Assembly (NCBI RefSeq): GCF_003387075.1
Contig: NZ_QUMQ01000001.1
Span: forward strand, 8,060,001 to 8,124,000
DNA from: Asanoa ferruginea
Lineage (GTDB): Bacteria > Actinomycetota > Actinomycetes > Mycobacteriales > Micromonosporaceae
DNA length: 64,000 nt
Reading direction: 5' to 3'
Positions 53,800 through 63,071 of this stretch are shown here, one piece after another. The notes below the pieces were generated by a model, which worked only from the letters and a program-made list of their open reading frames with translations, had not been told where the DNA came from and ran no database searches. Position 1 is the stretch's first letter; every line of letters starts with the position of its first letter. The translations under genes were made by a program, and so were the position numbers.

Positions 53800-53860
53800 C
53801 CGGCAGCCCTCAAAGGGCAAAGGTCTTGACGTTTGCCCGAAGCGAGCGTCCACTAGATCA

Positions 53861-55048
53861 ATGACGCTCCCGGTCCGCCTGCGCTGCGTGCTCTGCGAGC
53901 AAGACCGGCCGGCCACGGTCGACGCACACGTCTGCCCGGAACACGAGGGCCTCGCCGGGATCCTCGACGTCGTCGTCGACAACCCCCGGCGGGGCACGGG
54001 CGACGACCCGCTCGACCGTTACCGATCGCACCTGCCGCTCCCGGCCACGCCGCGGGTGCTGCCGACCGGCTACCTGACCCGGACCCCGCTGCTGCCCGCG
54101 CCGCGGCTGGCCACGCTGCTCGGCGTCGGCGAGCTGCTGATCAAGGACGAGAGCCGCAACCCCACCGGCTCGCTCAAGGACCGGTCGTCGGCGCTGGCGG
54201 TCGAGCTCGCGGTGTACGGCGGCTACACCGACATCGCCTGCGCGTCCACCGGCAACGCGGCGTCCAGCCTGGCCGGTGCCTGTGCGGTCGCCGGGCTGAC
54301 CGCCCGCATCTTCGTGCCCGTCGGGACACCGGTGGGCAAGCTGGCCCAGCTCGCCGCGTTCGGCGCCCAGGTGATGCTGGTCCGGGGCAGCTACGACGAC
54401 GCCTACTACCTGTGCGAAGACGCCGCCCGCGCGTTCGGCTGGTACGACCGCAACTGCGCCGTCAACCCGTACCTGATGGAAGGCAAGAAGACCTGCGGTC
54501 TTGAACTGGCCGACCAGCTCGGCGACGCGCGGGCCGACTGGGTCAGCGTCGCCGTCGGCGACGGCTGCACCGTGGCGGCCATCGGCAAGGGGCTCGCCGA
54601 GGGCGGCCACGGCGACACCCGGCTGCTGGCGGTGCAACCGGCCGGTGCCGCGCCGATCGTCGACGCGTGGGTCAGGAACAGCGAGGAGATCACGGCGATA
54701 GAGGCGCACACGGTCGCCGACTCGGTCTCGGTCGGCCGGCCCCGCAACGCGGTCAAGGCCCTGCGCACCGTGCGGGCCAGCGGCGGCGCCTTCCGCGCGG
54801 TCGACGACGCCGACATCGAAGCGGCCGCCCGCCTGCTCGGCCGGATCGCCGGTTTCTTCGCCGAGCCCGGTGCCGCCGCCGGCATCGCCGCGATCCAGGG
54901 CGCCCGCGCCGAGGGCCTGATCGGGCCGCACGACCGGGTCGTCCACGTGGTCACCGGCAGCGGGCTGAAGACGACGGCCCGCACGGCAACGCCGTTCCCG
55001 GAGATCGAGGCGACCCTCGACGCCGTCCGCGCGGTGGTGGACGCGTGA
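53861..55048 (+). CDS. Threonine-synthase-like PLP-dependent enzyme with zinc ribbon
   Basis: A 395-residue fold-type II PLP enzyme. An N-terminal Cys cluster (RCVLCEQ, HVCPEH; Cys9, Cys12, Cys25) resembles a zinc ribbon, as in some threonine synthases. The PLP lysine is Lys106 in NPTGSLKDRSS, and the substrate loop is ACASTGNAASSLAGACAVAG. DGCTVAAIGKGLAEGG binds phosphate of PLP, and GSGLKTTA ends the core. In this cluster beside acylases and a FadR regulator a catabolic lyase or racemase is more likely than threonine synthesis. No ribosome-binding site is obvious. Its stop overlaps the next start (GTGA). Confidence 0.85.
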   Translation: MTLPVRLRCVLCEQDRPATVDAHVCPEHEGLAGILDVVVDNPRRGTGDDPLDRYRSHLPLPATPRVLPTGYLTRTPLLPAPRLATLLGVGELLIKDESRNPTGSLKDRSSALAVELAVYGGYTDIACASTGNAASSLAGACAVAGLTARIFVPVGTPVGKLAQLAAFGAQVMLVRGSYDDAYYLCEDAARAFGWYDRNCAVNPYLMEGKKTCGLELADQLGDARADWVSVAVGDGCTVAAIGKGLAEGGHGDTRLLAVQPAGAAPIVDAWVRNSEEITAIEAHTVADSVSVGRPRNAVKALRTVRASGGAFRAVDDADIEAAARLLGRIAGFFAEPGAAAGIAAIQGARAEGLIGPHDRVVHVVTGSGLKTTARTATPFPEIEATLDAVRAVVDA

Positions 55049-55731
55049 CCGACGCGCCGTTCGTCCCGGTCCGCGGCGGCCGGCTCTACGAGGACGTCGT
55101 CGACCAGATCACCTACGCGATCCGGCGTGGCCGGTTCGTCACCGGCGACCGCATCCCCGGCATCGACGACCTGGCCGCGATGCTCGGCACCAGCCGGCCG
55201 ACCGTGCGCGAGGCCGTCGGGCTGCTCGCGAACGCCGGCGTGCTGCGGGTCAAGCGCGGCCACACCGGCGGGATCGAGGTCGCCACCGACATCGTGCCGA
55301 CCGGCGTGCTGGCCCTCTCCCGGGCCGGCCACCGCGCCACCCTGACCGAGTTGACCGAGGCCCGCCGCCCGGTCGAGCAGGAGTTGGCCCGGCTCGCGGG
55401 GCAGCGGGCGACCGAGGACAACTTCCAGGCGCTGGCCGACGCGATCGCGATGCTGGCGCCGGCGCGCGGGAAACCGGCCGAGTGGGTGCGCGCCAACGAC
55501 CTGTTCCACTACGAGATCGCCCGCGCCGCGCACAGCCCGCGGCTGGCCCGCTACTCCCACGAGATCATGGAGGAGCTGGCGATCCTGCTCGACGGCTTCG
55601 ACGAGAAATACACCGACTACGACCACACCGTGCACATCCACGAGGAGACGCTGCGCGCGCTGCGTAGCCGGGACGACCGGCGCATCGCCGCGGTGATGGA
55701 CGACCACCTGGGCGAGCTGGAGGACACATGA
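55045..55731 (+). CDS. GntR-family regulator, FadR subfamily
   Basis: A 228-residue regulator. The winged helix (about 12-75) reads LYEDVVDQITYAIRRGRFVTGDRIPGIDDLAAMLGTSRPTVREAVGLLANAGVLRVKRGHTGGIEV. The all-helical FCD domain (about 95-220) keeps the metal-binding His pattern (NDLFHYEIARAAHS, HEETLRALRSRDDRRIAAVMDDHLGELE). FCD regulators usually sense organic acids or acyl compounds. It is coupled by 4-base overlaps to the PLP enzyme upstream and the amidohydrolase downstream, so it is the resident regulator of the cluster. Confidence 0.92.
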   Translation: MTDAPFVPVRGGRLYEDVVDQITYAIRRGRFVTGDRIPGIDDLAAMLGTSRPTVREAVGLLANAGVLRVKRGHTGGIEVATDIVPTGVLALSRAGHRATLTELTEARRPVEQELARLAGQRATEDNFQALADAIAMLAPARGKPAEWVRANDLFHYEIARAAHSPRLARYSHEIMEELAILLDGFDEKYTDYDHTVHIHEETLRALRSRDDRRIAAVMDDHLGELEDT

Positions 55732-56900
55732 TCACGATCGTCGGGGCCCAGGTGTTCGACGCCGTCACCGGGACGGCCGCGCGTAAAGACGTGACCATCC
55801 ATGATGGACTGATCAGCGCCGTCGGTGGTGACGTCGCGGCCGAGACGATCGACGGCACCGGCGCCACGCTGCTGCCCGGCCTCATCGACTGCCACACCCA
55901 CCTGTGCGCCACCGCGACCCCCGACATCATCGCCCAGATGGGCGGCGACAGCCCGACCCGCGCCACCCTGCACGCGGCCCGCAACGCGAAGGCCCACCTG
56001 GACGCGGGCGTGACGACGGTCCGCGACTGCGGCGCCCTCGGCGGCGTCGCGATCGAGTTGGCCCGGGCGATCGACGACGGCCTGGTCGACGGGGCACGGG
56101 TGCAGGCGGCCGGGCTGGTCATCACGATGACCGGCGGCCACGGCCACTTCCTCGGCCGCGAGGTCGACGGCGTCGACGAGGTGCGCAAGGCCACCCGGCA
56201 GGCGATCAAGGACGGCGCCGGCTTCGTCAAAGTGATGTCGACGGGCGGCCTGCTGACCCCGGGCGTCACCGCGGGCCGCACCGCGTTCGCACCCGACGAG
56301 CTGAAGGTGCTGGTCGACGAGGCGCACAACGCCGGCCTGCGGGTCGCGACGCACGCGATCGGCAACGAGGGCATCAAGAACGCGCTGCGGGCCGGCGTCG
56401 ACTCGGTCGAACACGGCTTCTATCTCGACGACGAGGCGATCGACCTGCTGCTCGCCCGCGACGACGTCTACCTCGTGCCGACCCTCTCGGGCGTCGAGTG
56501 CGCGCTCGCGCACGGCGACGAACTCGCGCCCTGGCTGCGGACCAAGTCGCAGGCCGTCGTCGAGGACCGGGCGGCGAGCTTCCGCCGGGCCCACGCGGCC
56601 GGCGTACGGTTCGCCGCCGGCACCGACGCCGGCACCCCGTTCAACCCGCACGGCGGCCTGCCGCACGAGATCGCGCTGATGGCGGAGGTCGGCCTGTCCC
56701 ACGCCGAGGCGCTGATCGCGGCGACCCGGCACGCGGCGGCCAACCTGGGCCTGGCCGACCGGATCGGCACGATCGAGGTGGGCAAGGTCGCCGACCTGGT
56801 CCTCGTCGACGGCGACCCGCTGGCCGACCTCGGCGCGCTCCGCAAGGTGCGGCAGGTCATCCAGGCCGGTGTCCCACGACCCCCGGCCGGGCACCGGTGA
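55728..56900 (+). CDS. Metal-dependent amidohydrolase (Xaa-Pro/aminoacyl hydrolase type)
   Basis: A 390-residue amidohydrolase. Metal ligands are visible in order: DCHTHL after LLPGLI, the carboxylated Lys in GFVKVMSTGG, THAIGN, SVEHGFYL, and Asp in GTDAGTP. TMTGGHGHFLGREVDGVDEVRKATRQAIKDGA is typical of the group (Sgx9260/Sgx9359, Xaa-Pro-like) that cuts N-acyl or dipeptidyl amide bonds. The ATG overlaps the regulator stop. Its 3' end overlaps the opposing D-aminoacylase gene by 44 bases, which may couple the two gene rows by antisense. Confidence 0.9.
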   Translation: MITIVGAQVFDAVTGTAARKDVTIHDGLISAVGGDVAAETIDGTGATLLPGLIDCHTHLCATATPDIIAQMGGDSPTRATLHAARNAKAHLDAGVTTVRDCGALGGVAIELARAIDDGLVDGARVQAAGLVITMTGGHGHFLGREVDGVDEVRKATRQAIKDGAGFVKVMSTGGLLTPGVTAGRTAFAPDELKVLVDEAHNAGLRVATHAIGNEGIKNALRAGVDSVEHGFYLDDEAIDLLLARDDVYLVPTLSGVECALAHGDELAPWLRTKSQAVVEDRAASFRRAHAAGVRFAAGTDAGTPFNPHGGLPHEIALMAEVGLSHAEALIAATRHAAANLGLADRIGTIEVGKVADLVLVDGDPLADLGALRKVRQVIQAGVPRPPAGHR

Positions 56901-58455
56901 GCCGCCCGTCCCGCACCACCGCGACGCCGTTGACCAGCACCTCGTCGATGCCCGCCGGCACGGCGATCAGCGCGTCCTCGCGCACCGCGGTGCCGACCCG
57001 AGCGGGGTCGAACACGGTCACGTCGGCGCGGTAGCCGGGCGCCAGCACGCCCCGGTCGGTCAGCCCGATCTGGGCGGCCGGCTCGGCGGTCATCCGTGCG
57101 ACCGCCGCGGCCAGCGGCACCAGGGCCTCGTCGCGGACGAACCGGGCCAGCATCTCCGGCACGTAGCCCCAGTCGGACGCGCACATCGCGTGCCCGGCCA
57201 GCGGGCCGTCCAGCGCGCCGGTCAAACCGTCGCCCATCACCAGGAAGTCGGGTTGGGCCAGCGCCCAGCGCAGGTCGTCGTCGGCGAAGACGGGCTCGAC
57301 CACGACCGCGTCGTAGAAGTCGTCGCCGGCCCGGCGGAGGATCTCCAGCACCACCTCGGGCAACGACAGATCCCATTCCTTGGCCAGCTCGCCGAGGGTC
57401 CGGCCGACCAGCGTGCCGTCGCCGCCGTCGGAGGCAAGGTGGCAGGCCGCGGCCTCGCCGCCGGTGAGCGCGTCGACGAACCGCTGGTCGAGCGTCTCCA
57501 GCAGGCTGGTGCTGAGCAGCCGGCGGGCCACCTCGCGGCGGGGCGCGTCGCGCAGCGACATCGGCACCACAAACGTCGGCAGCGGCGTCGGTCCGTGCGG
57601 GAACGGGAACACGTCGAGCCGCGACCGGGTCGGCCCGGCCCGCACGACGTCGACGGCCTGGTAGAACAACGAGGGGTCGGTCGACGTCGGCCGCCGCACG
57701 AAGTGCGAGAGCTGGAGCCGGCACCCGGTGCGCGCGGTGATCGTCACCGCTTCCGTTGCCGCTTCCACGATCCGGTCCGTCCGATTGCGACAGTGCGAGG
57801 CGTAGAGGCCGCCCCGCTCCCCCACCGGTGTCGCGACGGCGACCAGCTCGTCGGTGTCGGCGGCCAGGCCCGGCGCGTACTCCAGGCCAGACGAGACGCC
57901 GACTGCGCCCGCGTCCATCGCCTCGGCCGCGAGGCCGCGTACCCGGTCGAGCTCTTTGGCGGTCAGCGAACGGGTCGAGAACCCGGCCACCGCGAGCCGC
58001 AGCGCGCCGTGCGCGACGAGCGGGTACACGTTGACGCCGACGCCCTGGCCGCGCAGCGCGTCGAGGTATTCCGGGAACGTGCGCCAGGTCTGCCGGTCGT
58101 CCCAGGCCGCGCGCCAACCGGGGATGTTCGTCGGCACCAGCGGCGCGGACCGGTCGGTCACCGGCGCGACCCCGTGCCCGCAGTTGCCGGTCACCACGGT
58201 GGTGATGCCCTGCGCCACGCTGCTCTGCGCCCGCCCGTCGACCGCGAGGGTGAAGTCGGCGTGCGAGTGGATGTCGATGAACCCGGGGCTGACCACCTTG
58301 CCTGTGACGTCGATCGTCTCGTGGCCGTCGAGCGTTCCCGGCGCCCCGACGGCAGCGACCCGATCGCCCGACAGAGCGACGTCAGCCACCACCGGCGGCC
58401 CGCCGCGGCCGTCGACCACGGTGCCGCCGGCCAGCACCAGGTCGTGCTCAGCCAT
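56857..58455 (-). CDS. D-aminoacylase/N-acyl-D-amino-acid deacylase family protein
   Basis: A 532-residue amidohydrolase of the D-aminoacylase type. Metal and catalytic sites are FIDIHSHADF (His63, His65), Cys92 in VVTGNCGHG (the unusual cysteine ligand of this family), GVSSGLEYAPG, and SHCRNRTDRIVEA and QLSHF with further His. Near 410, VMGDGLTGALDG holds the likely catalytic Asp. These enzymes release free D-amino acids from N-acyl forms, or act on related amides. It overlaps the TPP-enzyme gene by eight bases, so it is in the same minus-strand operon. Confidence 0.88.
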   Translation of the reverse strand: MAEHDLVLAGGTVVDGRGGPPVVADVALSGDRVAAVGAPGTLDGHETIDVTGKVVSPGFIDIHSHADFTLAVDGRAQSSVAQGITTVVTGNCGHGVAPVTDRSAPLVPTNIPGWRAAWDDRQTWRTFPEYLDALRGQGVGVNVYPLVAHGALRLAVAGFSTRSLTAKELDRVRGLAAEAMDAGAVGVSSGLEYAPGLAADTDELVAVATPVGERGGLYASHCRNRTDRIVEAATEAVTITARTGCRLQLSHFVRRPTSTDPSLFYQAVDVVRAGPTRSRLDVFPFPHGPTPLPTFVVPMSLRDAPRREVARRLLSTSLLETLDQRFVDALTGGEAAACHLASDGGDGTLVGRTLGELAKEWDLSLPEVVLEILRRAGDDFYDAVVVEPVFADDDLRWALAQPDFLVMGDGLTGALDGPLAGHAMCASDWGYVPEMLARFVRDEALVPLAAAVARMTAEPAAQIGLTDRGVLAPGYRADVTVFDPARVGTAVREDALIAVPAGIDEVLVNGVAVVRDGRLTGARPGVVGHRPG

Positions 58456-60742
58456 GGAGCGCCATCGCCGACAGAGCCGCGTTGACGATCGCTCCGGGCT
58501 CCAGGTCGTGCAGCGCGTAGAGGTCGGCCACGCTGCCGGACTGCCCGAAGCCGTCGACGCCGAGCGGCACGGCCGGCACCCCGAGCGCGGAACCCAGCCA
58601 GGCCATCGTGTGCGAGGCCGCGTCGTGCACGGTCACCAGCGGCACCCCGGGCGCGAACACGCCGCGCAGCGCACCCGGCAACGCCGGCACCCGCGCCGAC
58701 CGGATGCCCGCGCGCAGGGCCGCCTGCCAGTCCGAGTAGAGCCGGTCCAGCGAAGTGACGTCGACGACGTGCGCGGCGACGCCCTCGTCGGCCAGTTCGT
58801 CGGCCGCGGCCAGCACCTCGGGCAGCACCGCGCCGCTGGCCACCAACTGCACCGCGGCCGGCTCCCCGGCGTCGCGCAGCCGGTAGGCGCCGGCGAGCAC
58901 CTGCCGGCGCAGCAGCGCGTCGCCGAGCCGCTCCCGGGCGGCCTCGAACGGCGCCTGGTCGATCGGCCGAGTGGTGAGCCGGAAGTAGAACGCGCCCTTG
59001 CCCGCCGCCACGGCACCGAGCGCCGCGCAGAGCTGCCAGTCGAGGGCGGTGCCGTAGGCCGGTTCGGCGAACGTGACGCCCGGCAACTCCAGCCCGATCG
59101 AGGCGGTCAGCGTCGACTGGTGCGCGCCGCCCTCGGGGGCCAGCGTGACGCCCGACGGCGTGCCGGCGACGACGAAGCTGGCGCCGCTGTAGGCCGCGTA
59201 GATGAACGCATCCAGGCCGCGGCAGACGAACGGGTCGTAGACGGTGCCCACCGGCAGCAGCGGTTGCCCCGACAGGTCGCCGGCCAGGCCGAGCTGGCCG
59301 AGCAGCATGAACAGGTTCATCTCGGAGATGCCCAGCTCGATGTGCTGGCCACCCGGCCCTTCGACCCAGCGCAACACCGGGTCGGTCGACCAGGTCGTAC
59401 GCGGGTCGGGTGCGAAAATGCCTGTGCGGTTGATGAAGCCGGCCAGGTTCGTCGAGGTCGCCACGTCCGGCGCGGTCGTCACCAGGTAGGGCGCGACCGC
59501 AGGATCCCGGGCGAGGTCGGTCAGAACCCGCCCGAAAACCTCCTGTGTGGACGCTCGCGCACCCACCCGCACACCCGAGCGCTGCGGGACGGCTGCCCGT
59601 TGCGGTGCCGCGGCGTCGGGCCGGGTCAGCGCCGCGCGACGGGCCTCGGCCAACGCGCCCGCCGCCGACGACGGGTCGAGACGATCCCACTCGGTGTCGA
59701 CGGTCAGCCCGGTCGCCGCGCGCAGCACGTCGACCTGCTCCCCGCTCAGCAACGCCGAATGGTTGCGCGGATGACCGGCGGCGGGCAGATGCCAACCCTT
59801 CACGGTGTACGCGAAGACCACGCTCGGCCGGTCGGTCACCGCGTCGCATTCCGCGTAGGCGGCCAGCAGCGCCGCGACGTCGTGCCCGCCGAGGTCCTGG
59901 AGAAGCGCCGCCAAATCGGCGTCCGGCACGCCGGCGATGGCCGCGGCGACCGGCGCCGGCGCACCGTCGAGGAACTGCTTGCGCAGCGCCTCGCCGTCGA
60001 GGCCGAACAGCGACTGGTAGTGCTCGTTGGGCATCTGGTCGATCCAGTCCCGCAGCGCGCCGCCGTGCTCCCGGGCGAACGCCGCCCGCAGCCGGGAGCC
60101 GTATTTGACCTCGACCACGTGCCAGCCGGCCGCCGCGAACTGTGCGGCCCACTGGGCGACCCGGATGCCGGGCACGACCCGGTCGAGCGACTGGCGGTTG
60201 AGGTCGACCACCCACATCACGTTGCCGAGGCCCGCGGTCGCCGGGTCGGCCACCGCCTCCCAGACGCTGCCCTCGTCGAGTTCGGCGTCACCGATGACGG
60301 CGACGAACCGGGAGTCCTCGCGCGGGCCGAAGTGCGCGTCGACGTAGCGGCGGGTGGCGGCGGCGAAGAGCGGCGCGGCCGCGCCGAGCCCGACCGAGCC
60401 GGTGGAGAAGTCGACGCCGTCGGGGTCCTTCGTGCGCGACGGGTAGGCCTGGAGGCCGCCGCGGGCCCGAAGCTGGGTCAGGTAGGACCGGTCGAGGTTG
60501 CCCAGCAGATAGGAGATCGCGTGGAAGACCGGCGCGGCGTGCGGCTTGACCGAGACCCGGTCGCCGGCCCGCAGGTGCGCGAAGTAGAGCGCCGTGAGCA
60601 CCGAGACCAGCGAGGCCGACGACGCCTGGTGCCCGCCGACCTTCACACCGTCGCCGGTCTCGCGCTCGCGGTTGGCGGCGTCGACCATCCGCACCGCGAG
60701 CCAGAGCACCCGCCGCTGGATCTCCTCCAACGCCTCGTTCAT
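58448..60742 (-). CDS. AceE/transketolase-like TPP enzyme
   Basis: A 764-residue two-domain thiamine diphosphate enzyme. The PP domain has VIGDAELDEGSVWEAV (151-) and VVDLNRQSLDRVV (Asn182), the GDG...N TPP-binding motif with Ala in place of the central Gly; NRQSLD is typical of AceE-like E1 enzymes. VKVGGHQASSASLVSVLTALYFAHLRAGDRV starts the enzyme, and GISEMNLFMLLGQLGL lies in the pyrimidine domain with the activating Glu. It is over 100 residues shorter than AceE, and no E2 or E3 gene is near. It may decarboxylate a 2-oxo acid or transfer a C2 unit. The ATG overlaps the M20 stop (ATGA). Confidence 0.88.
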   Translation of the reverse strand: MNEALEEIQRRVLWLAVRMVDAANRERETGDGVKVGGHQASSASLVSVLTALYFAHLRAGDRVSVKPHAAPVFHAISYLLGNLDRSYLTQLRARGGLQAYPSRTKDPDGVDFSTGSVGLGAAAPLFAAATRRYVDAHFGPREDSRFVAVIGDAELDEGSVWEAVADPATAGLGNVMWVVDLNRQSLDRVVPGIRVAQWAAQFAAAGWHVVEVKYGSRLRAAFAREHGGALRDWIDQMPNEHYQSLFGLDGEALRKQFLDGAPAPVAAAIAGVPDADLAALLQDLGGHDVAALLAAYAECDAVTDRPSVVFAYTVKGWHLPAAGHPRNHSALLSGEQVDVLRAATGLTVDTEWDRLDPSSAAGALAEARRAALTRPDAAAPQRAAVPQRSGVRVGARASTQEVFGRVLTDLARDPAVAPYLVTTAPDVATSTNLAGFINRTGIFAPDPRTTWSTDPVLRWVEGPGGQHIELGISEMNLFMLLGQLGLAGDLSGQPLLPVGTVYDPFVCRGLDAFIYAAYSGASFVVAGTPSGVTLAPEGGAHQSTLTASIGLELPGVTFAEPAYGTALDWQLCAALGAVAAGKGAFYFRLTTRPIDQAPFEAARERLGDALLRRQVLAGAYRLRDAGEPAAVQLVASGAVLPEVLAAADELADEGVAAHVVDVTSLDRLYSDWQAALRAGIRSARVPALPGALRGVFAPGVPLVTVHDAASHTMAWLGSALGVPAVPLGVDGFGQSGSVADLYALHDLEPGAIVNAALSAMALHG

Positions 60743-62043
60743 GACGGCCTCCCGGGCAGATAGGCGAGCGCCGCGCCGACCAGCGTCTCGACACCGCGGC
60801 GCAGGGTCGGTAGGCGATCCGGTGCGTAGAACGGGGTGTGCTGCCCGGGCATCCGCGCCATCCGCTCGCGCAGGTCGCCGGGCTCGGCGTCCCACCGGTC
60901 GGCCGCGGTGCTGCCGTAGAACCACATCGTGGCCGGGATCGACACGCCGTCCCACGAGGAGAAGTAGGCGAAGTCCTCGCTGCCGTTGTTGGCCGTCGGC
61001 AGGTCGATCACGTCGCCCTCCGGGAACAGCTCGGCGTGCACCGCCCGGACCCGGGCCGTCACCGCGGCGTCGTTGTCGACCGGGATGGTGTGCTCCAGCA
61101 ACTCGATGTCCGGCGGCCGGGGCGCGCGCCCGGTCTCGGCGACGCCGCGGACGATCCGTTCGAGCGCGGCCTGGAGCGTGTCCATGACGGCCTCGCTGGT
61201 GGCCCGGAGGGTCACCTCGAGCACGGCCTCGGGCGGGATGATGTTGGGCCGGGTGCCGGCGTGCACGGAACCCACGGTGACCACGGTCATCTCGCCAGGA
61301 TCGATCTCGCGGGCCACGATCCCCTGGAGCGACACGATGGTCTGCGCGGCCAGCAGCACCGGGTCGACCGACCAGTGCGGCGCCGCGCCGTGCGCACCGC
61401 GGCCGTGGATGGTGATCCGGAAGTTGCGGCAGCCCGAGTAGGCGATCCCCGGCCGGTGGTGCACCATCCCGGTGCGGGTCACCGCGCAGTGCTGCGCGAG
61501 CACTACGTCGGGCCGGGGGAAGCGGTCGAACAGACCCGCGCCGAGCATGGCCTTGGCGCCCTGCATGGTCTCCTCGGCCGGCTGCGCGATCAGCAGGAGC
61601 GTGCCGCGCCACAGGTCGCGGCGGTCGGCCAGCAGGCGTGCCGCCCCGATCAGGCTGGCGGTGTGCAGGTCGTGGCCGCACGCGTGCATGACCGGCACGG
61701 TCGTCCCGTCGGGCCGGCCACCGACCGCGGTGCTCGCGTAGGGCAGCCCGGTGTCCTCGGCGATCGGCAGCGCGTCGAAGTCGGCCCGCACCCCGACCAC
61801 CGGCCCGGGCCCGTTGGCCAGCACGCCGACGACACCGTGGCCACCGAAGCCGGCGGTCACGTCGAGCCCCGCGGCGGCGTAACGATCGGCGACGATGCCG
61901 GCCGTGCGCTTCTCGGAGCCGGACAGCTCGGGGTGGGCGTGCAGATCCTGGTAAAGCACGTCGATGTCGGGCAGCACCTGGTCGAGGCCGCTGAGCACCG
62001 CGCGGGCGCGGCGGGCCGTATCCGGTGGGGACTCGGTCGTCAT
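60739..62043 (-). CDS. M20-family amidohydrolase (aminoacylase/hippurate-hydrolase type)
   Basis: A 434-residue enzyme of the M20D group: DLHAHPELSGSEKRT, VRADFDALPIAEDTGLPYAS, MHACGHDLHTASLIGAA (Cys122 and His124 as metal ligands), AQPAEETMQGAKAML (catalytic Glu), the dimerisation domain with HGRGAHGAAPHWSVDP, and ANNGSEDFAYF near the end. These enzymes remove acyl groups from N-acyl amino acids or open amide bonds. It is the first gene of the minus-strand operon. ATG 62043 is preceded by GGGGAGG. Its neighbours suggest it feeds an amino acid to the PLP and TPP enzymes. Confidence 0.92.
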   Translation of the reverse strand: MTTESPPDTARRARAVLSGLDQVLPDIDVLYQDLHAHPELSGSEKRTAGIVADRYAAAGLDVTAGFGGHGVVGVLANGPGPVVGVRADFDALPIAEDTGLPYASTAVGGRPDGTTVPVMHACGHDLHTASLIGAARLLADRRDLWRGTLLLIAQPAEETMQGAKAMLGAGLFDRFPRPDVVLAQHCAVTRTGMVHHRPGIAYSGCRNFRITIHGRGAHGAAPHWSVDPVLLAAQTIVSLQGIVAREIDPGEMTVVTVGSVHAGTRPNIIPPEAVLEVTLRATSEAVMDTLQAALERIVRGVAETGRAPRPPDIELLEHTIPVDNDAAVTARVRAVHAELFPEGDVIDLPTANNGSEDFAYFSSWDGVSIPATMWFYGSTAADRWDAEPGDLRERMARMPGQHTPFYAPDRLPTLRRGVETLVGAALAYLPGRPS

Positions 62044-62124
62044 GGGTTTGCCTCCCCTATGGACCACATTCGAGCCACAGACTAGCTTTCACTCTCAACG
62101 TCGCTCAAGGAAATGTCGCCCTGT

Positions 62125-62143
62125 TTTCGAAACTCTATTGACT
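62125..62143. promoter_or_regulatory. TTTCGAAA palindrome and TTGACT -35 in the M20/FAH divergent region
   Basis: The 170-bp divergent gap is AT-richer than its surroundings. It holds TTTCGAAA (62125-62132), TTGACT (62138-62143, a possible -35 for the FAH gene) and several TCGA cores. It is a plausible target of the FadR-type regulator, but no clear FCD-type operator stands out. Confidence 0.35.
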
Positions 62144-62213
62144 ACTCGAACACTTGGGCCTGATGCTGAGGCGGGCCGGGCGGCCGGCCCTCTTGGCGAG
62201 CAAGGAGCGGCAC

Positions 62214-63071
62214 ATGCGGATTGCCAACGTCGCCGGCCGGCTGACCGTCGTCACGCCGTCCGGTGGCATCGACGTCGAGCGCGCGAGCGGCGGCCGCTTC
62301 CCGGCCGACGTGGCCGCGGTCTACGCCCGCTGGGCCGAGTTCACCGCGTGGGCCGCCGGTCTTGACCTCGCCGCCGACGCGACGCCGATCGACGAGGCCG
62401 CCCTGGGCGCCCCGTCGCCGCGCCCGGCACAGGTCTTCGCGATCGGCCTCAACTACGGCGCGCACGCGCTCGAGGCGGGCTACGACATCCCCGAGGTGCC
62501 GATCACGTTCACGAAGTTTCCGACCTGCATCACCGGCCCACACGGCGACCTGCCCATCCCCGGCGACACGGTCGACTGGGAGGTCGAGCTGGTCGCCGTC
62601 GTCGGCCGGCTCGCCAGCAACGTCTCGACCGACGACGCGTGGTCTTTTGTCGCGGGCCTGACCGTCGGCCAGGACTATTCCGAGCGCCGGGTGCAGACCC
62701 TGGGCCAGTCGCCCCAGTTCAGCCTGGGCAAGTCGTTCCCGGGCTTCGGCCCGACCGGCCCGTGGCTGGTCACCCTCGACGAGTTCGACAACATCGACGA
62801 CCTGGCCTTGGACTGCACGGTGAACGGCGAGGTGATGCAGTCGGGCCGCACCCGCGACATGATCATGTCGGTGCCCGCCCTGATCTCCCGCCTGTCGGCG
62901 ATCTGCCCACTCCTGCCCGGCGACCTCATTTTCACCGGCACCCCGGAGGGCGTCGGCTCGGGCCGCACGCCGCCGGTCTACCTGCGCCCGGGCGACGAGG
63001 TGGTCAGCACGATCGAGCGAATCGGCACCATCCGCCAGCGCTGCGTCGTCGCCGCCCACGCCGCCGTCTAG
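62214..63071 (+). CDS. Fumarylacetoacetate-hydrolase (FAH) family protein
   Basis: A 285-residue FAH-fold enzyme. QVFAIGLNYGAHALEAGYDIPEVPITFTKFPTCITGPHGDL leads to the metal site, with VDWEVELVAVVGR (Glu ligands), GQDYSERRVQTLGQSPQFSLGKSFPGFGPTGPWLV, and LLPGDLIFTGTPEGVGSGRTPPVYLRPGD. Family members hydrolyse C-C bonds of acylpyruvates or decarboxylate or hydrate 2-oxo diacids. AAGGAG precedes ATG 62214. It is divergent from the M20 gene and probably completes the catabolic cluster by acting on a 2-oxo acid intermediate. Confidence 0.9.
   Translation: MRIANVAGRLTVVTPSGGIDVERASGGRFPADVAAVYARWAEFTAWAAGLDLAADATPIDEAALGAPSPRPAQVFAIGLNYGAHALEAGYDIPEVPITFTKFPTCITGPHGDLPIPGDTVDWEVELVAVVGRLASNVSTDDAWSFVAGLTVGQDYSERRVQTLGQSPQFSLGKSFPGFGPTGPWLVTLDEFDNIDDLALDCTVNGEVMQSGRTRDMIMSVPALISRLSAICPLLPGDLIFTGTPEGVGSGRTPPVYLRPGDEVVSTIERIGTIRQRCVVAAHAAV

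Follow-up and report, generated by a model that had tools for sequence, protein, structure and literature searches.

A window of 64,000 nucleotides from Asanoa ferruginea (contig NZ_QUMQ01000001.1, positions 8,060,001 to 8,124,000) carries, at window positions 53861-63071, seven closely spaced genes. These encode a pyridoxal phosphate (PLP) enzyme, a GntR-family regulator (GntR1), an amidohydrolase (AH), a D-aminoacylase-like protein (DA), a thiamine diphosphate (TPP) enzyme, an M20-family hydrolase, and an enzyme of the FAH superfamily. We favor, with about even confidence, the reading that these genes are the proximal half of a GntR-controlled import-and-degradation regulon for a small amide-containing compound, and that this regulon continues past the window edge. 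Soil bacteria probably use the locus to import such a compound and take it apart. The compound most likely has one part that is a beta-substituted amino acid and possibly another that is a sugar acid.

An earlier note on this DNA had described two gene rows that converge with a 44-bp overlap and a third, diverging gene. It had read them as a catabolic cluster with three deacylases, PLP, TPP, and FAH enzymes, and a FadR-type regulator. Calls of the open reading frames (ORFs) confirmed the seven genes, their strands and order, the diverging gene, and the short overlaps. The GntR1 gene overlaps both of its neighbors, the PLP and AH genes, by 4 bp each; the AH and DA genes converge and share 44 bp at their tails (56857-56900); and the FAH gene diverges from the M20 gene across 170 bp. 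The family assignments were likewise borne out by Pfam, with PALP, GntR plus FCD, Amidohydro_1, Amidohydro_3, transketolase/pyruvate dehydrogenase E1, Peptidase_M20, and FAA_hydrolase all above cut-off. Among the NCBIfam matches listed (the best 25 of 38 for the PLP enzyme, of 44 for AH, and of 54 for DA), the sole cut-off passed was that of the subfamily model TIGR01891 by the M20 protein.

Table 1. Features of the locus in window coordinates
Feature	Position	Strand	Basis or remark
PLP enzyme, fold type II, threonine-synthase-like	53861-55048	+	PF00291, 240 bits
GntR-family regulator, FCD subfamily (GntR1)	55045-55731	+	PF00392 and PF07729 above cut-off
Amidohydrolase AH, prolidase/carboxypeptidase/ochratoxinase group	55728-56900	+	PF01979, 172 bits
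D-aminoacylase-like amidohydrolase DA	56857-58455	-	PF07969; residue table
Stand-alone TPP enzyme, AceE fold	58448-60742	-	NCBIfam, alignments, AlphaFold2 model
M20 aminoacylase-type amidohydrolase	60739-62043	-	TIGR01891, 256 bits (cut-off 153.75)
FAH-superfamily acylpyruvate/diketo-acid hydrolase-like enzyme	62214-63071	+	PF01557, 209 bits
25-base element TTCGAAANTNTATTGACNNNTCGAA	62126-62150	+	Divergent M20/FAH promoter; another copy lies past the window edge, at the distal end of the locus
Inverted repeat GCAAANNNCTTGACGTTTGC	53817-53836	+	GCAAA-N10-TTTGC enclosing CTTGAC; before the PLP operon

Conservation and extent of the locus

The same gene order and orientation recur in six genomes of two genera, with protein identities of 75-90%. 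Three belong to the genus of the window genome (the window genome itself, G000, with G673 and G691) and three to genus g338 (G712, G721, and G734). We took G691, G712, and G734 to be Asanoa iriomotensis (L038), Dactylosporangium sucinum (L039), and D. sp. AC04546 (L040). Four of the six have the complete set of seven genes, and the remaining two lack one gene each (GntR1 in G734, the TPP gene in G721). Of the five other genomes, four have the same 44-bp tail overlap of the AH and DA genes, and one has an overlap of 93 bp. For every gene, differences to the window amount to 0.05-0.17 at codon positions 1 and 2 and to 0.23-0.37 at position 3. Because of this synteny, identity, and codon-position pattern, the cluster represents more than chance adjacency, an explanation that the common promoter element described below also helps to rule out. 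The neighborhood check that the earlier note had called for therefore upheld the co-conservation of the seven families as a unit, with one gene missing in two genomes.

DA matches at E <= 1e-120 were found in 7 of 350 genomes of the family, namely the six cluster genomes and G697 (47% identity), and three of six listed genomes of the window's genus carry the gene at this threshold. At E <= 1e-80, DA occurs in 2 of 396 genomes of the phylum (the window genome and G420) and AH in 1 of 236 genomes of the class, its own. The best plasmid relative of AH, from Rhodococcus opacus (42%), shares no neighbors with the locus; it was the only record viewed, and 69 other plasmid records matched. A search of named genomes with the TPP protein returned 80 loci, 3 of which (L038, L039, and L040, the last without the GntR gene) have the other cluster genes alongside. 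At E <= 1e-10 the other 77, some on short contigs, have none of the other six genes save 28-31% GntR matches in L099 and L109. G420, from another class, carries a PALP enzyme, a clamp-less DA (37%; see below), a GntR protein (44%), and Dpp/Opp genes, together with a Gfo/Idh dehydrogenase, an enolase-superfamily gene recognized by eye, and an F420-PPOX protein. The F420-PPOX gene has a counterpart in the Dactylosporangium-type clusters and none in that of the window genome. This arrangement speaks for an old link between the deacylase, a fold-type-II PLP enzyme, a GntR regulator, and an importer.

The locus does not end at 63071; it resumes about 3.3 kb later, beyond the window. In the five other cluster genomes, the FAH gene is followed by genes for an S9 peptidase, a medium-chain (MDR) alcohol dehydrogenase, a D-2-hydroxyacid dehydrogenase, and a class V aminotransferase. 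Next come those for a double Opp ATPase, two permeases, a family-5 binding protein, and an MR/MLE enzyme, from which a second GntR/FCD gene (GntR2, with both domains above the Pfam cut-off) diverges. These ten further genes, whose families were assigned by Pfam, stand in identical order in all six cluster genomes. In the window genome, the S9 peptidase gene lies at contig positions 8126400-8128181 (77% to D. sucinum) and the MR/MLE gene at 8136713-8137834 (89% to G673). The whole locus thus comprises about seventeen genes over about 25 kb. The earlier note had seen a full route in the seven genes, and this does not hold, because ten more genes, an importer included, accompany them in all six genomes.

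A gene for a UvrA-like ATP-binding cassette (ABC) protein (contig 8123172-8125715, window 63172 onward) splits the series in the window genome only and was not found at the corresponding place in the other five cluster genomes. Short stretches that match the FAH gene (95% and 78%) lie behind it (L201 3955-4106, where the UvrA-like gene spans L201 1173-3716), and this suggests that the gene may be an insertion accompanied by a partial FAH duplication. In G712 and G734, the opposite end of the locus also carries a second Opp set and an F420-PPOX-type gene next to the PLP gene. In A. iriomotensis, genes resembling the FAD and 2Fe-2S subunits of xanthine/CO dehydrogenase were recognized by eye about 3 kb past the PLP gene (L038 19789-21732).

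Promoter elements and regulators

The 25-base element TTCGAAANTNTATTGACNNNTCGAA is common to the M20/FAH spacer and the spacer between the MR/MLE and GntR2 genes, with one copy in each spacer in all six cluster genomes. Genome-wide, with one mismatch allowed, G000, G673, G691, G712, and G734 contain exactly two copies, and the congeners G641, G705, and G716, all without DA at E <= 1e-120, contain none; the reversed element gave no match in any of the nine genomes. G721 has two further copies, before a second FAH gene (77%) and before a further GntR-like gene (by eye), which adjoin a second Opp set, an F420-PPOX-type gene, and a 23-residue remnant of the TPP enzyme. This extra pair was not built into the element and is therefore an independent pointer, again to FAH and Opp.

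The inverted repeat GCAAANNNCTTGACGTTTGC precedes the PLP operon, and elements of its type gave one match where zero were expected. The repeat is exact in L127, L203/L038, and L128, has one change in L130 (G712) as judged by eye, and is lost in L129 (G734), the sole cluster genome without GntR1. We regard it as a candidate operator of GntR1. A repeat search of the M20/FAH spacer found one GC-rich palindrome. The earlier note's description of the regulator as FadR-type stands for the FCD subfamily of GntR proteins, as assigned by Pfam, but not for FadR itself, because GntR1 scores 22.3 bits on the FadR equivalog model against a cut-off of 249.2.

Divergence of the enzymes from their named relatives

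The reductive urate pathway ends in 2,3-diaminopropionate, which is cleaved by the PLP enzyme YgeX, according to PMC12507026. Several relatives of the window PLP enzyme lie in gene clusters of this type. The enzyme shares the fold-type-II core and an N-terminal Cys-rich stretch with threonine synthase. That identity was nevertheless ruled out by scores below the thrC cut-offs (157.5 versus 167.1 and 223 versus 303 bits) and by the loss of one Arg. A clear ThrC is encoded elsewhere in the window genome (L159, 302 bits), and the Arg of its NVDRLHG stretch, which we take to be phosphate-binding, is Leu in the window enzyme. Matches at E <= 1e-60 occur in 12 of 236 genomes of the phylum sample, the window genome included, and we viewed the gene surroundings in seven other genomes of the 12; L183 and L184 are short contigs with no further ORF called. 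The nearest relatives outside the locus, in G443 and G316 (57%), join the window clade with a local support of 1.000. In G443, the gene lies with genes for YgeY (464 bits, cut-off 321), dihydropyrimidinase (516, cut-off 393), carbamate kinase (362, cut-off 358), and a YgeW-like carbamoyltransferase (237, below 453). In G316, on a short contig, it lies near a YgeW-like gene. G303 (45%) has an N-carbamoylputrescine-amidase-like gene nearby (256, below 410) and a BMP-type transporter recognized by eye. For the more distant relatives in L185, L186, and L187, no urate-type set was found, and an amidohydrolase was seen by eye in L186.

Relatives also occur on haloarchaeal plasmids, where we examined 9 of 19 matching records. 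A D-aminoacylase gene lies within 8 kb of the PLP gene in six of the nine loci, and six of nine have two amidohydrolase-type genes and an LLM oxidoreductase. In Haloprofundus, an M20 gene is the sole neighbor of this kind; the Salinigranum locus has peptide-transporter ATPases, a zinc dehydrogenase, and an acetamidase/formamidase; and one of two Haloarcula amidohydrolases is best on the SsnA model (286 bits, below 444). YgeX above cut-off was found in none of the 11 genomes or records searched, four of which are single plasmids and some draft genomes. The window enzyme itself scores 38 bits (gene) or 52 bits (protein) on the YgeX model, against a cut-off of 276. From these neighborhoods and the missing YgeX, we infer that the PLP group appears to stand in for YgeX in some clusters of actinobacteria and haloarchaea. 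On that basis, the window enzyme is predicted to be a beta-eliminating ammonia-lyase that acts on diaminopropionate or a similar amino acid.

Separately, six of the plasmid loci (L192, L194, and L209-L212) carry thrC-annotated genes in what appears to be an F420-type reductive purine/urate cluster. Each has two amidohydrolases and an LLM oxidoreductase, and five of the six have a D-aminoacylase and a Zn-dependent hydrolase. These thrC-annotated genes are probably mis-annotated lyases.

The best PDB relatives of DA are D-aminoacylase 1m7j (228 bits), N-acyl-D-glutamate deacylase (3gip), and, lower, PpOngB. DA belongs to the same family as the first two and retains the zinc and catalytic positions H67, H69, C96, H220, H250, and D366, plus Y192 (1m7j numbering). 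However, DA has V, F, P, and S in place of K252, Y283, S289, and R377, and E in place of F191. PMC12017989 describes the residues matching these four as strictly conserved in D-aminoacylases and OngB; they form the clamp that anchors the alpha-carboxylate of the substrate. We set their 1m7j positions from the PpOngB numbers of that paper, two lower. The clamp-less pattern (V/A, F, P, S/A, E) is found in all five proteins of one set: the window DA, L039, G697 (L131), Variovorax SRS16 (L190), and G420 (L132). Elsewhere, three haloarchaeal comparison proteins keep all four clamp residues but have Asp at ligand C96, L148 keeps three, and the second copy in the window's own genome (L133) keeps two. 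The label of D-aminoacylase given in the earlier note therefore fits the metal site but not the substrate pocket, and, by reasoning from the fold, the clamp loss makes an N-acyl-alpha-amino acid an unlikely substrate. The nearest DA relatives outside the locus (46-47%, clamp-less) are those of Variovorax SRS16 plasmid 3 (L190) and G697 (L131). In the former, the gene is the immediate neighbor of valS; in the latter, a class I tRNA-synthetase gene is no more than 4 kb away. Aminotransferase genes are also nearby in both, and each region looks like a biosynthetic or self-resistance cluster.

The AlphaFold2 model of the TPP enzyme (33 sequences, pLDDT 83, pTM 0.85) is most similar in the PDB to AceE, the homodimeric pyruvate dehydrogenase E1 (TM-score up to 0.87, 2g25), with transketolases at 0.64-0.70 among the best 50 matches listed. 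The enzyme resembles AceE in fold, catalytic Glu, and TPP/Mg motif. It differs in scoring 231 bits on the AceE equivalog model (cut-off 860) and in lacking about 70-90 N-terminal residues, since its alignment begins at AceE residue 77-81, and the AceE of the window genome has about 87 residues ahead of the start. We take the absent part to be the one that binds E2. A transketolase-like NHSALL loop stands in place of the AceE inner loop, whose histidine is presumably lacking. The Arg and His that we assume to bind the sugar phosphate in transketolase are not conserved (Q400 and P529). The protein is best read as an accessory enzyme that would act on a non-phosphorylated 2-oxo acid or ketol.

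Relatives of the TPP enzyme at E <= 1e-60 occur in 94 of 249 genomes of the order, the window genome included. Among the 80 named TPP loci, GatB was recognized by eye in 56 and GatA in 53. An AsnC/Lrp regulator (Pfam) adjoins the gene in 4 of 20 loci of other genomes (L142, L143, L144, and L155), these four neighboring ORFs being the only ones scanned with Pfam. Their spread over three families suggests amino-acid-linked control of an uncharacterized enzyme common in the order. The G721 cluster has no TPP gene; the remnant lies beside the second FAH gene there, and a 50% relative elsewhere in G721 could act in trans. Its wide occurrence elsewhere and its absence from the G721 cluster rule out the TPP enzyme as the pathway core. 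The TPP step, which the earlier note had counted in its full route, is accordingly not obligatory within the cluster, given G721 and the 77 of 80 loci without the other six genes.

Two further TPP loci have other company. In L148 (G216), a homologue (71%) lies about 1.5 kb from an aldehyde dehydrogenase gene and near a D-aminoacylase-like gene, and the dehydrogenase suggests a decarboxylase-plus-dehydrogenase couple; no aldehyde dehydrogenase partner was seen in the window. In L147 (G163), a homologue (73%) occurs with a PRAI-family TIM barrel, a CutC-family gene, and ABC transporter genes.

Among the other enzymes, AH scores 287 bits on NF051886 (cut-off 500) and has prolidase, Cc2672, and ochratoxinase as PDB neighbors. 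It reaches 34 bits on the dihydropyrimidinase (hydantoinase) model against a cut-off of 393, and SsnA is not among the best 25 of its 44 matches. The M20 protein is nearest to N-alpha-acyl-glutamine aminoacylase 6slf (262 bits) and scores 30 bits on YgeY (cut-off 321). The FAH enzyme is nearest to 6v77 (274 bits) and then to 2,4-diketo-3-deoxyrhamnonate hydrolase 8gsr (169 bits). The MR/MLE protein scores best on acid-sugar dehydratase models, all below cut-off, and its nearest PDB chain is 4ggb, which we take to be galactarolactone cycloisomerase. Together with the FAH enzyme and the two dehydrogenases, it resembles, in our understanding, a non-phosphorylated sugar-acid route.

Proposed function and alternatives

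In the reading that we favor, the Opp importer would take up the amide-linked compound, and AH, the clamp-less DA, the M20 protein, and the S9 peptidase would cut its amide bonds. Late in the route, an alpha,beta-elimination by the PLP enzyme would turn the beta-substituted amino acid thus set free (2,3-diaminopropionate or a similar one) into a 2-oxo acid, with loss of ammonia. A second part of the compound, resembling a sugar acid, would be converted to pyruvate by the FAH, MR/MLE, and dehydrogenase enzymes. The TPP enzyme would serve as an accessory that decarboxylates a non-phosphorylated 2-oxo acid or transfers a ketol from it, and the two GntR/FCD regulators would control two promoter types.

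Several points weigh against this regulon. The substrate and the enzyme activities are predicted from sequence, and nothing but co-localization links the amino-acid part to the sugar-acid part. The role of the PLP enzyme is argued from gene neighborhoods, not from an assayed relative; several of the haloarchaeal plasmid regions are near-copies of one another, and the PALP enzyme of G420 shares only about 30% identity with the window enzyme, over 147 residues. DA has no known ligand for the amino acid that is due to the PLP enzyme, so the order of steps is not fixed. Moreover, TTCGAAANTNTATTGACNNNTCGAA was derived from the two spacers and matches there by construction, which leaves, as evidence independent of the derivation, its scarcity outside them and the additional pair in G721.

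We considered four other explanations. In one, a peptide-like antibiotic or its precursor is detoxified or scavenged, with DA and the S9 peptidase removing an acyl or peptidyl cap. The tRNA-synthetase genes near the closest clamp-less DA relatives, the Opp importer, and the several peptidases fit this idea. The Variovorax SRS16 and G697 clusters, however, have little else in common with the window locus, and no resistance-type gene was recognized in the locus save the UvrA-like insertion, which is absent there in the other five genomes. We consider this quite unlikely, if the least so of the four. The route proposed in the earlier note, in which three hydrolases deacylate an N-acyl- or D-amino acid, the PLP enzyme deaminates or racemizes it, and the TPP and FAH enzymes decarboxylate and cleave the 2-oxo acid, now seems very unlikely. 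It keeps the amidohydrolase, PLP, TPP, and FAH assignments and their co-conservation, the M20 protein's closeness to an N-acyl-glutamine aminoacylase, and the fold and metal site of DA. We lowered it after the residue table showed DA without its alpha-carboxylate clamp; it also meets an intact cluster without the TPP gene (G721) and leaves the importer, MR/MLE enzyme, and dehydrogenases among the ten extra genes unexplained.

The remaining two explanations draw on described systems. The reductive urate cluster (SsnA, HyuA, UacY or YgeW, YgeY, and YgeX), as presented in PMC12507026, has PF01979, PF07969, PF01546, and PF00291 proteins in common with the window and likewise proceeds from amide or ureide hydrolysis to a fold-type-II PLP enzyme; in Clostridioides difficile, the PF07969 enzyme UacY replaces YgeW. 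The window locus could thus be a divergent lower urate or ureide branch, with DA like UacY, the M20 protein like YgeY, AH like HyuA, and the PLP enzyme like YgeX, leading to 2,3-diaminopropionate and pyruvate. The four shared families and the urate-type clusters around the nearest PLP relatives speak for this branch. We nevertheless lowered it to highly improbable after the subfamily scores given above, since the M20 protein belongs to another subfamily than YgeY and AH probably to another than HyuA, and SsnA is not among the AH matches listed. A 2-ureido acid would presumably require the clamp that DA has lost, and a peptide-type importer replaces the nucleobase carrier. The locus adds FAH, TPP, and MR/MLE enzymes and dehydrogenases, and XdhD (xanthine dehydrogenase), YgfK, UacX, an F420-type reductase, and a carbamoyltransferase were not recognized by eye among the ORFs of the locus, to which this search was confined. 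The earlier note knew no named pathway with this gene set. In open-licence PubMed Central we found no paper with the full set, and among the matches listed nothing relevant on D-aminoacylase clusters; a search on MdeB gave no lead either. Four of the seven Pfam families, in other subfamilies, are nevertheless those that PMC12507026 describes for the lower part of reductive urate degradation. The least probable explanation is amino-sugar-acid breakdown as in oxidative chitin degradation, where an N-acetylated aldonic acid would be the substrate of an OngB-like DA and the PLP enzyme would yield a 2-keto-3-deoxy acid for the FAH enzyme. The ong cluster (PMC9537276, PMC12017989) also sets a D-aminoacylase-fold deacetylase, OngB, beside a PLP deaminase under repressor control, and the MR/MLE and FAH matches to acid-sugar enzymes fit. 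Yet OngB keeps the carboxylate clamp that DA has lost, for which we lowered this explanation after the residue table; OngC is of fold type III, whereas the window PLP enzyme is of the fold-type-II PALP family; and the ong cluster has a sugar kinase where the window has the FAH enzyme, no 2-keto-3-deoxygluconate kinase being recognized in the locus.

Returning to the import-and-degradation regulon, a bolder form of it, which we think unlikely, would make the locus a complete pathway devoted to a natural compound whose role as a nutrient has yet to be recognized, in which 2,3-diaminopropionate or another beta-substituted amino acid is amide-linked to a sugar-acid-like part. DA would then found a carboxylate-independent subfamily of the D-aminoacylase fold, and the PLP family would supply the diaminopropionate lyase that is missing from the urate-type pathways of actinobacteria and haloarchaea. 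The labels "D-aminoacylase" and "threonine synthase" are unsafe for these two subfamilies. With its borders, importer, two regulators, and promoter element now defined, the locus offers a practical way to its substrate, since the binding protein and both regulators lend themselves to direct screening. For reductive urate-type clusters where no YgeX was found, the PLP group can be tested as a candidate for the final enzyme.

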